Of a stretch of 64,000 bases of DNA, positions 55,153 through 57,720 are shown piece after piece. Source of the stretch: Porticoccus hydrocarbonoclasticus MCTG13d (GTDB lineage Bacteria; Pseudomonadota; Gammaproteobacteria; Pseudomonadales; Porticoccaceae); the NCBI RefSeq assembly GCF_000744735.1, contig NZ_JQMM01000001.1, positions 682,001 to 746,000 of the forward strand. Direction: 5' to 3'. The notes under the pieces are model-generated. The model was given only the letters and a program-made list of their open reading frames with translations, was not told the DNA's origin and searched no databases. The translations under genes and the position numbers were made by a program. Within the stretch, counting starts at the first letter, position 1; every line of letters begins with the position of its first letter.

Positions 55153-55572
55153 ATGAAAGCAAAAGTCATCTGGGGTGGTGATGTAAAATTCACCGCAGAA
55201 ACAGAATCTGGTCATCAAATCGTGATGGATGGTCCTCCGGATCATGGCGGCACGAATCAGGGTGCCCGCCCGATGGAGATGGTTCTCTGTGGTATGGGGG
55301 GGTGTTCATCGTTTGATGTGGTGCATATTCTCAAGAAGAGCCGTCAGGATGTGACGGGTTGTGTGGCAGAAATTGATGCGCAGCGCGCGGATGACGTCCC
55401 CGCCGTTTTCACCAGCATACACATCCACTTCGTGGTCACCGGCCGGGACCTGAAAGAGAACCTGGTGAGTAATGCGGTAAAACTGTCCGCAGAGAAATAC
55501 TGTTCCGCGTCTATCATGTTGACCAGAGGCGGTGTCGAAATTACTCACAGCTACGAAATCCATTCTGCCTGA
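55153..55572 (+). CDS. OsmC family protein (YhfA-like)
   Basis: A 139-residue OsmC-fold protein. MEMVLCGMGGCSSFDVVHILKK carries one conserved cysteine, and KYCSASIMLTRGGVEITHSYEI the second near the C-terminus. The fold is that of thiol peroxidases, though the YhfA branch has no well-defined role. The ATG at 55153 gives MKAKVIWGGDVKF, the usual start; an upstream TTG is less likely. It is divergent from vfr with 110 bases between starts, so both may share a regulatory region. Confidence 0.88.
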   Translation: MKAKVIWGGDVKFTAETESGHQIVMDGPPDHGGTNQGARPMEMVLCGMGGCSSFDVVHILKKSRQDVTGCVAEIDAQRADDVPAVFTSIHIHFVVTGRDLKENLVSNAVKLSAEKYCSASIMLTRGGVEITHSYEIHSA

Positions 55573-55638: not shown

Positions 55639-55663
55639 AAAAAAAAGGGCAGCGAAGCTGCCC
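55639..55663 (-). terminator. Intrinsic terminator of small RNA 1
   Basis: A seven-base GC-rich perfect stem (55647-55653 with 55657-55663) and a three-base loop, followed on the minus strand by eight T. On the plus strand no T-run follows, so it does not serve the osmC gene. Confidence 0.75.
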
Positions 55664-55737
55664 AAGGGATTTTAAATAGGAGGGAGATAAAAGTATCAAT
55701 GGATTGTTTGAGAAGCCAGTGTGTCTGAACAAACAAT
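55639..55737 (-). ncRNA. Candidate small RNA 1
   Basis: On the minus strand a TATAGT -10 (55744-55749) would start an RNA near 55737. Its first bases form a perfect eight-base stem, ATTGTTTG (55737-55730) with CAAACAAT (55710-55703). An unpaired stretch with CUCCCUCC (55686-55679) follows, then an intrinsic terminator: GGGCAGC/GCTGCCC stem (55663-55647) and eight U. Total about 99 bases. This is the layout of a trans-acting, Hfq-type RNA with an anti-Shine-Dalgarno seed. The -35 is weak (TTCAAT). No minus-strand gene exists upstream that needs this terminator. Confidence 0.55.
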
Positions 55738-55824
55738 GGGCTAACTATAGATCGAGCCTTATCATGATTGAAATGTATTAAATTTATCTAACTCATTCCC
55801 TGTATTTATTTCTGATGTGCATGC

Positions 55825-55851
55825 AAAAAAACAGGCAACTTGCGTTGCCTG
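55825..55851 (-). terminator. Intrinsic terminator of small RNA 2
   Basis: A perfect eight-base stem (55832-55839 with 55844-55851) and four-base loop, followed on the minus strand by seven T. It has no T-run on the plus strand. Confidence 0.75.
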
Positions 55852-56019
55852 AAAAAGATATAGAGGGAGTAAGAGAACTACACTCGAATGACCTGATAAT
55901 TCAATACTGGGAGTATTTCACTCATCCGGCACATTCACGGGACTTTGGGTTCAGCGACACCAAGTAACCGGTGAGAGGGTGTCGCTTGGTGGAAACCATG
56001 CCTTGGCCCCGCTTGGTAC
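55825..56019 (-). ncRNA. Candidate small RNA 2
   Basis: A minus-strand promoter TTGAGT (56054-56049), 17-base spacer, TATATT (56031-56026) predicts a start near 56019. The RNA would contain a nine-base stem AGCGACACC/GGTGTCGCT (55986-55978 with 55961-55953), a small hairpin with a CCC loop (AATACT-CCC-AGTATT, near 55910), a CUCCCUC motif (55869-55863), and a terminator (stem CAGGCAAC/GTTGCCTG, 55851-55832, then seven U). Length about 195 bases. It shares the motif order C-rich seed then terminator with small RNA 1 just downstream. It is divergent from the LysR gene. Confidence 0.55.
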
Positions 56020-56025
56020 AGTGTC

Positions 56026-56063
56026 AATATAGTCATTGACTAACCATGACTCAAATGTATTAA
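56026..56063. promoter_or_regulatory. Overlapping divergent promoters of lysR and small RNA 2
   Basis: Plus strand: TTGACT (56036-56041), 16 bases, TATTAA (56058-56063) for lysR. Minus strand: TTGAGT (56054-56049), 17 bases, TATATT (56031-56026) for the small RNA. The two promoters interleave, so occupancy of one would affect the other. Confidence 0.5.
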
Positions 56064-56066
56064 GAT

Positions 56067-56097
56067 AATATCATTCATAATCTATAGGAATGATATT
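56067..56097 (+). promoter_or_regulatory. Perfect 10-base inverted repeat covering the lysR ribosome site
   Basis: AATATCATTC (56067-56076) and GAATGATATT (56088-56097) are perfectly inverted with an 11-base centre, and the second arm ends directly before the GTG start. The AGGAA ribosome site (56086-56090) overlaps the second arm. As DNA it is a plausible LysR autoregulatory site (it has the spaced T...A dyad form); as RNA it would mask the ribosome site. Confidence 0.6.
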
Positions 56098-57069
56098 GTG
56101 GATACTAAAATTCTGTCCCGTGTTGACTTGAACTTGTTGGTGGCTCTTCAGGTGTTGCTGGAAGAGCGCAGTGTGACGAGGGCTGCGGAACGACTGTTCA
56201 TTACTCAGCCAGCCATGAGTAAAACCCTTCAGCGTCTCAGGGATCTATTCGATGATCCCCTGTTTATCCGCAGTGGGCGAGGGCTGATTCCAACACCCAG
56301 AACCAATGAGTTGGCTGTCCACCTGCCGACACTGTTGGCTGGTGTATCGGATTTGGTGGCCAGTGGCAAATTTGATCCACTTACCTATGAGGGAGAAATT
56401 TGCATCATGACGGCAGAGTTCATCGCGGTGCAGGTGGTGCCCACCCTCACCCAGAGAATAATCAGGGAGGCGCCGAGAATGTCACTGACGCTGACCAGCG
56501 AGGCGGAGGAGGAAGGTCGTGCGCTGGAGGATGGTGATCTGGATTTTGCCATCGAAATTTCTCGCCCCTACGGAAGTGAATATCATGTGACTCCACTGGG
56601 CAGTTTCACGCCAGCTGTGTGGATGCGTGCCGAGCATCCGCTTGCCAAGAAAGACAAGTTGACCCTGGTGGAAATGCTTGAATACCCTTTTATTCAGTAT
56701 TACCTGCTGTTGACGGGCCCGATCTCGGCCAATGCAGAGAGCCGGTTTGACCGGGAGTTGGCAAAACATGGTCTCAAGCGGCAGAAAACCCTGGTCACCA
56801 CACAGTTGATGACAGCCATGGATGCCCTGTGGCATACCGATTGCCTGATGATGGCCACCATGCACGACCTTAAAATCGAGAGTGAGTCATACGGTATTGT
56901 GCGTAAACCCTACCCGGAAGAACTGGAGTTTGATAATACCGTTCCGGTGGTATTGGTGCAGCATGTCAGGACCATCAAGTCGCCGGCTCACCAATGGGTC
57001 AAAGATCAGATTATTGGCATTGTTCAGGACATCAAGGAGCAGGCTCGACAGGCAGTCCGCGCCCGTTGA
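56098..57069 (+). CDS. LysR-family transcriptional regulator
   Basis: A 323-residue LysR regulator. The N-terminal HTH is RVDLNLLVALQVLLEERSVT followed by RAAERLFITQPAMSKTLQRL, and a two-lobe ligand-binding domain follows. The N-terminal DLNLLVAL type resembles the NodD/LeuO-like group more than GcvA or CysB. The ligand is unknown. The GTG start (MDTKILSRVD) has AGGAA seven bases upstream. It is divergent from small RNA 2 and converges on coq7 with six bases between stops, so its targets are most likely itself and the divergent RNA. Confidence 0.9.
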   Translation: MDTKILSRVDLNLLVALQVLLEERSVTRAAERLFITQPAMSKTLQRLRDLFDDPLFIRSGRGLIPTPRTNELAVHLPTLLAGVSDLVASGKFDPLTYEGEICIMTAEFIAVQVVPTLTQRIIREAPRMSLTLTSEAEEEGRALEDGDLDFAIEISRPYGSEYHVTPLGSFTPAVWMRAEHPLAKKDKLTLVEMLEYPFIQYYLLLTGPISANAESRFDRELAKHGLKRQKTLVTTQLMTAMDALWHTDCLMMATMHDLKIESESYGIVRKPYPEELEFDNTVPVVLVQHVRTIKSPAHQWVKDQIIGIVQDIKEQARQAVRAR

Positions 57070-57075
57070 CAGGCC

Positions 57076-57720
57076 CTAAATATGGTAGCTGGTTTTGGTC
57101 ATGGCGCCGGAGATCAGCGTCATCAAACCCTTCACTGGTGAGGGAAATTCCAGGCCACCAGCTTCCTTTGCCACTGTCGCATGTTTGCCCTCATCTTCCA
57201 GCATTTTCTGCACAATGGCGCGGCTTTTGGTGTCGTTTTCCGGCAGTATTTCGAGATGATTTTCGAGGTGCTGACAGACCTGCTGTTCGGTGGCGGACAC
57301 AAAGCCGAGGCTGAGTTTGTCACTGATCAGCCCGGTAGTGGCCCCGATGCCAAAAGACAGGCCGTACCAAAGTGGATTCAACAGGCTGGTGTGTCCACCC
57401 AACTGCTTGAGCCGGTCCTGGCACCAGGCCAGGTGATCAATTTCCTCATCGGCTGCCTGCTCCATCTCATTGCGAACCGAAGTGAGTTTTGCTGTCAGTG
57501 CTTGTCCCTGGTAAAGCGCCTGGGCACAGACCTCTCCTGTGTGGTTGACTCGCATCAGACCTATCGCGTGCCGTTTTTCACGCTCATCCAGCGTGTGCTC
57601 CTCAGCGGTTTTTCCCGGTGACAGGCGGGCCGGTGCCGGAGGCTCGGCTGCCAGGGTCCGCAGGGCACGGTCTACCTGAAGTAGAAGTCCATCGAGCTTG
57701 GTAAGCTGCCTTGTGTGCAC
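57076..57720 (-). CDS. coq7: Demethoxyubiquinone hydroxylase Coq7
   Basis: Coq7 adds the last ring hydroxyl in ubiquinone synthesis with a di-iron centre. The 214-residue protein keeps the ligands: the first Glu in [26 protein letters not shown], and [14 protein letters not shown] for the second Glu-x-x-His. Its two-helix hydrophobic segment ([19 protein letters not shown]) binds the membrane. This is the Pseudomonas-type replacement for UbiF. It appears monocistronic and converges on lysR. Confidence 0.93.

Follow-up and report, generated by a model that had tools for sequence, protein, structure and literature searches.

Organization of the osmC-lysR gap

The window analysed here is a stretch of 64,000 nucleotides from Porticoccus hydrocarbonoclasticus MCTG13d, in which osmC (ending at 55572) and lysR (starting at 56098) are separated by a gap of 525 bp. 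The lysR gene (56098..57069, plus strand) encodes a protein of 323 aa, the presumed regulator of the two RNAs described below and of itself, and coq7 lies behind it on the minus strand (57076-57720). As read from the sequence, the gap comprises two minus-strand units, each formed by a promoter, a C-rich motif and an intrinsic terminator. The initial annotation had placed two minus-strand terminators here, each preceded by a C-rich motif, and both pairs of elements were recovered by direct reading.

The first unit corresponds to predicted small RNA A (55639..55737, minus strand, about 99 nt), which is distal from lysR, adjoins osmC and is delimited by its promoter, the start of a stem and its terminator. 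The terminator (55639..55663, minus strand) has its stem at 55663-55647 (GGGCAGC-TTC-GCTGCCC) followed by U8. The C-rich motif of this RNA, CTCCCTCC / CUCCCUCC, occupies 55679..55686 on the minus strand and is kept in relatives. Its -10 box is TATAGT (55744..55749, minus strand), with the same spacing in relatives, and an operator-like box of the T-N11-A type, AATACATTTCAATCATG, is located at 55763..55779 on the same strand. RNA A had been proposed to begin at an 8-bp stem; this stem starts at 55737, approximately where the -10 box predicts the first nucleotide.

The second unit corresponds to predicted small RNA B (55825..56020, minus strand, about 195 nt), which adjoins lysR and is defined by its promoter, its terminator and its conservation in the genus. 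The terminator (55825..55851, minus strand) is formed by the stem at 55851-55832 (CAGGCAAC-GCAA-GTTGCCTG) and U7, and the C-rich motif, CUCCCUC (DNA CTCCCTC), lies at 55863..55869 on the minus strand within the conserved stretch CUCUUACUCCCUCUAUAUC. The annotated promoter, TTGAGT-17-TATATT, was found at 56026..56054 (minus strand), and its -35 is overlapped by an operator-like box of the T-N11-A type, AATACATTTGAGTCATG (56045..56061, minus strand). The -35 of unit A is weaker than that of unit B. RNA B also contains a frame of 25 codons, which is not kept, since its first codon is GTA in two of five near relatives.

Against shuffles, the folding z was -3.36 for the span of RNA A (55740-55639) and -3.65 for that of RNA B (56020-55825). 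Terminator-like sites amounted to 4 in 2.6 kb, compared with 2.4 (sd 1.8) in shuffles. This is the level of chance, so the case for the units rests on comparison: what raises them above chance is their conservation together with a direct repeat formed by both promoters. This repeat (39 nt, 74%) was the only one reported in the gap by the repeat finder, with copies at 55758..55796 and 56040..56078 (minus strand), the latter in the lysR promoter region.

The shared operator-like box and its presumed regulator

Both promoters contain AAT-N11-ATG, a LysR-type T-N11-A box, which in each case starts 30 nt from the -10. A pattern, AATRCATTTBDRTYATG, was drawn up after viewing these and related promoters. 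In the organism's own genome (2.47 Mb, one contig) its two exact matches are the two unit promoters only, and with up to two mismatches 13 matches were obtained versus 10 for the reversed control. A third match, with one mismatch at 433024, was discarded because it reads like protein-coding sequence. The 17 genomes of the genus gave 15 exact matches, all at the lysR locus, and 35 with up to one mismatch (23 at the lysR locus), compared with 3 for the reversed control.

The lysR product contains the domains HTH_1 (66.1 bits) and LysR_substrate (66.5 bits), both above the Pfam cut-offs. In enterics, GcvA-GcvB and OxyR-OxyS are systems in which a LysR-type gene is divergent from the small RNA that it activates, but those are single small RNAs and a tandem pair is found here. 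The regulator also differs. As the initial annotation had held, it is not GcvA-like: it reaches 41.8 bits where the GcvA cut-off is 288 and shares 28% over 109 residues with a GcvA sequence, and GcvA identity was rejected. The RNAs matched no Rfam model, that of GcvB included. The arrangement suggests that one promoter-operator, present in two copies, drives two sibling trans-acting RNAs, A and B. LysR, encoded next to them, would bind the T-N11-A box overlapping each -35 and activate both. Such a LysR circuit would be devoted to these RNAs, with lysR itself probably also within it.

Conservation across Porticoccaceae

The Porticoccaceae set comprises 63 loci (L031-L093), taken from the best 80 of 96 relatives in a LysR protein scan; in L031-L035 the LysR is 98-99% identical to that of the window. 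The LysR tree, midpoint-rooted and with long-branch warnings, grouped the window with L031-L044 (15 rows, 100/100), with further Porticoccaceae and SAR92 rows as neighbours. Minus-strand terminator units were identified in 55 of the 63 loci, 101 units in total, and 45 of these 55 loci contain two or more. The unit is present in all 51 loci with osmC next door. A C-rich stretch lies no more than 48 nt before the stem in 100 of the 101 units, and a T-N11-A-type box precedes 81, the other 20 being without a box by the pattern used. Eight loci gave no terminator unit: L056, L076, L079, L082, L084, L087, L088 and L090. In all of these except L056, trpC and not osmC lies beside lysR; this SAR92 branch has osmC and crp gone from the lysR side. 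Within the window's clade, 7 of 14 loci have one unit only, the distal unit having been lost there.

The annotation's main proposal, tandem C-rich small-RNA genes divergent from lysR, is thus supported by conservation in relatives. Its suggestion that the pair arose by duplication of an ancestral unit gains from the operator repeat common to both, from the equal spacing to the -10 and from relatives with two, three and four units.

Eleven sequences of the genus were aligned (two of the five near-identical relatives, the window and L036-L043). The CTCTTACTCCCT columns and the operator core of RNA B are invariant and the terminator is invariant or nearly so; the lysR-side stretch of the promoter region is also kept across the genus. 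The 5' half diverges in sequence and varies in length from about 75 to 160 nt, so that of the annotated 5' stem-loops the presence is verified, and neither sequence nor length is conserved. An alignment of 12 modules has 93.7% of its terminator-stem cells paired, and two-sided changes occur in 8 cells compared with 3.1 in shuffles (0 of 500 shuffles as high). The comparison of this gap among relatives, proposed earlier as a check, yields terminator stems that change and still pair, with the C-rich motif kept. The covarying stem being the terminator, it is evidence of termination on that strand and not in itself of a function of the RNA. Chance hairpins in an AT-rich gap, compatible with the number of terminator-like sites given above, are refuted as a full explanation by this family-wide conservation with compensating changes, and their probability is practically nil.

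A different origin for the terminators would be a long coq7 transcript running antisense through lysR and ending at them, as the position of coq7 on the minus strand behind lysR might allow. This is very improbable: each unit has its own promoter, a single terminator would suffice, and the units persist in L046, L049 and L052, where coq7 lies at least 1.5 kb beyond lysR.

A covariance model of the 3' module (R1) was built from 12 sequences, the window (including RNA A) among them. It matched at full length in 15 of the 17 genomes of the genus, with best E values between 1.1e-17 and 1.4e-10, and lysR and osmC are adjacent in all 15 loci retrieved. RNA A is itself matched in full. The exceptions are G014, with weak matches only, and G011, with none. 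In the own genome at least two full matches and at least three to the terminator part only were counted, with 150 of 740 first-look candidates scored. Of the covariance searches recommended in the annotation, this model recovers two full matches in the own genome, and Rfam, at gathering score, gave no family match in the window or in 17 relative loci. Sub-threshold Rfam matches to sbrA (19.9 of 45 bits) and suhB/mmgR (18.6 of 41) cover the terminator and C-rich stretch only and were rejected.

Variants of the unit were observed at larger distances. SAR92 units, such as those of L047, L057 and L160, present a second small hairpin between the C-rich stretch and the terminator, AAUCC...GGAUU, which in L160 is UAUCC...GGAUA. 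The outer loci (L094-L109), mostly Halieaceae, have an AACCC.../...GGGTT terminator divergent from lysR in 15 of 17; in many a UCCAGGUCC stretch is conserved, with no C-rich motif.

A microprotein in relatives and the probable loss of its frame

A feature outside the initial annotation is that in 34 of the 63 loci a unit also encodes a hydrophobic membrane microprotein of 34-53 residues, preceded by a good ribosome site; MTLVYILIGFTGLAGAAIAKDDFANVKAPK in HTCC2207 is an example. For the MTLVY type, represented by 29 sequences of which 27 are distinct, pN/pS is 0.207 in this frame versus 1.08 and 2.85 in the shifted frames, and 11, 3 and 25 of 28 columns vary at the first, second and third codon positions. 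The microprotein stays below the cut-off of every Pfam and NCBIfam family. A shorter peptide (24-28 residues) that ends similarly, in IAWDD or IAWED, occurs in 6 of the 17 outer loci; its homology is less sure, as these peptides were added to the profile by hand.

With a profile of the microprotein, matches at E 0.001 or better were obtained in 13 of 20 genomes from elsewhere in the family. The 17 genomes of the window's genus gave none at E 0.1, and in an even sample of the order it was present in 15 of 390 genomes and 4 of 142 genera. A conserved short frame with a ribosome site, the mark of a dual-function RNA, is thus found in relatives and not in the window. Given its absence from all 17 genomes and the RNA units retained there, the window's genus would have retained the RNA after losing the frame. 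Only noncoding units are likewise found in a seven-row SAR92 subclade (100/100 in the LysR tree). Since the sister rows L045, L046, L058, L092 and L093 have the frame, as do most SAR92 rows, two losses would fit better than separate gains of GLxGxAIAxDD, as judged on one gene tree, that of LysR.

The units of the window could be leftovers of microprotein genes, with an operator and terminator persisting only for the sake of the lysR promoter and to insulate neighbouring genes, and with no role of the C-rich stretch in pairing. The lack of the frame throughout the genus, the loss of the distal unit in half of the clade loci and the free divergence of the 5' part would all be expected of such leftovers. 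The invariance of the C-rich stretch would not, since the surrounding sequence does vary, and neither would terminator stems that change on both sides and still pair or a distal copy with its -10 and spacing intact. Moreover, some relatives have noncoding distal units bearing the C-rich stretch beside coding units. These observations make the leftover origin unlikely. The explanation that is probably correct is that A and B are LysR-controlled sibling small RNAs with a C-rich anti-Shine-Dalgarno stretch, derived from dual-function units after loss of the frame. The ancestral units would have been dual-function RNAs also coding for a one-helix membrane microprotein, and in the window's genus the frame would be gone and the RNA half retained.

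The C-rich stretch and candidate targets

Each RNA was taken to start 7 nt downstream of the -10. On this basis the C-rich core is less often paired than the body of the RNA in 73 of 80 units (mean unpaired 0.78 vs 0.49) and no more open than the rest in the other 7. The genome contains an Hfq gene (105.9 bits). Anti-Shine-Dalgarno pairing would be the natural reading of an open C-rich core: each RNA would present this stretch unpaired just before its terminator, and the stretch would pair, probably with Hfq, with purine-rich Shine-Dalgarno regions, so that translation is blocked.

Complements of 12 nt to the seed gave for RNA B one match (itself) versus 4 in the control, and for RNA A five (itself and four others) versus 2. 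GAGGGAG before ATG occurs in 32 places compared with 19 in the reversed control, mildly above it; 30 of the 32 became loci, in which frames of at least 50 codons were listed. With so few 12-nt complements and so mild an excess of GAGGGAG, the targets stay candidates. The one followed into the genus is acs (acetyl-CoA synthetase), with the start region GAGAGGGAGGATTTCATG. Its orthologs were read in 16 of 20 loci, the other four being set aside for a match that starts only beyond residue 6, and they contain GGGAG in 15 of 16 and AGGGAG in 13 of 16, six of them being near-identical strains. Among the window genes, by a rough choice of start, GGGAG was counted in 2 of 51 and AGGGAG in 1 of 51. The acs gene may be one target of the RNAs; it is a lead only, as a Shine-Dalgarno sequence is conserved anyway and the wider target searches gave little.

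Real, LysR-controlled RNAs may carry this stretch for another purpose, as a protein-binding or sponge site or for action in cis on the microprotein message. Extended complementarity to gene starts is indeed scarce, and in relatives the stretch falls in the 3' UTR of the coding unit. It is nevertheless kept where no frame is left to control, and like-looking C-rich anti-Shine-Dalgarno seeds are proven in AbcR1/2 and VcdR, according to the sources cited below. A function of this other kind is improbable, and pairing with translation starts is retained as the preferred role.

Comparison with known systems

The system nearest in design is LsrB/VtlR-AbcR and the nearest in the anatomy of the unit is VcdRP. 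AbcR1 and AbcR2 (alpha-r15) of Rhizobiales are tandem sibling small RNAs beside the LysR-type gene LsrB/VtlR, with C-rich anti-Shine-Dalgarno motifs (CUCCUCCC, UUCCCCUC) and T-N11-A in their promoters, and VtlR also activates a small-protein gene (PMC8844928, PMC7486931). All of these elements have their like here: the LysR regulator, the tandem siblings beside it, the motifs and the promoters. The differences are that those organisms are Alphaproteobacteria, that the window has no Rfam match at gathering score, that here one identical operator stands on both units and the small RNAs are divergent from lysR, and that the relatives encode their small protein within the sRNA-like unit.

VcdRP of Vibrio cholerae comprises a frame of 29 aa, a C-run seed and a terminator on one transcript, and it pairs with translation starts through a four-cytosine seed (PMC8672173). 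The relatives' units have the same order of short frame, C-rich stretch and terminator; VcdRP differs in its CRP control and single copy, and the microprotein described here is hydrophobic and absent from the window's genus. NmsRA and NmsRB of Neisseria are tandem siblings, 70% identical, with anti-Shine-Dalgarno motifs, which repress central metabolism (PMC5362039). They resemble A and B as tandem siblings with such motifs and differ by their control through the stringent response (PMC5362039). In the dual RNA SgrS/SgrT the pairing part is more widely conserved than the frame (PMC8672173), and the likeness would be that of a pairing RNA outlasting its frame; regulator and seed are others, the sequence comparison having been made through Rfam only. 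The best reading by analogy is that the window RNAs would work like LsrB/VtlR-AbcR, NmsR and VcdRP, and they were filed under none of AbcR, VcdRP and NmsR because no Rfam model matches.

A search of one literature library, judged by title, gave no account of this circuit under LysR dual-function RNAs, small RNAs of Porticoccus, SAR92 and HTCC2207, or small proteins of Porticoccaceae. If the interpretation is right, the Porticoccaceae, an abundant marine family that includes the SAR92 clade, own a dedicated regulator-sRNA circuit unknown to Rfam and a microprotein family that neither Pfam nor NCBIfam covers. The LysR plus tandem anti-Shine-Dalgarno design of LsrB/VtlR-AbcR would also recur in Gammaproteobacteria, which raises the question of multiple origins. 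The larger finding would be a coding-to-noncoding series of a dual-function RNA: as coding, mixed and noncoding versions occupy one syntenic place, the loss of the frame can be traced and tested stepwise.

Tandem and dispersed copies

The largest number of microprotein units was seen in genome G036, with four in tandem beside lysR with the operator (L154) and six further copies elsewhere (L155-L159), ten in all. The dispersed copies have a different common promoter, CACCACCCTACTTAACATTG ... CATAAT in most, and most of the copies in this genome are followed by UUUACCUACCC and a terminator. A broader reading, with a somewhat better than even chance of being right, is that of a LysR-dedicated dual-function family, combining a conserved one-helix microprotein and a C-rich pairing RNA, multiplied in tandem (up to four) and dispersed under a second type of promoter. 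Its protein half would have been lost in two or more lineages, including the window's genus, in which the mRNAs would have become pure sibling small RNAs.

Two other loci contain microprotein units. L160 (G034:C28) has several in tandem in about 3 kb, partly N-masked and one with a degraded start, and no lysR, osmC, crp or coq7 match was identified in its 5-kb stretch. In L167 (G018:C1, minus strand), a microprotein unit has the exact operator AATACATTTCAATCATG, and its 2.5-kb stretch contains no lysR, which would suit a regulator acting in trans.
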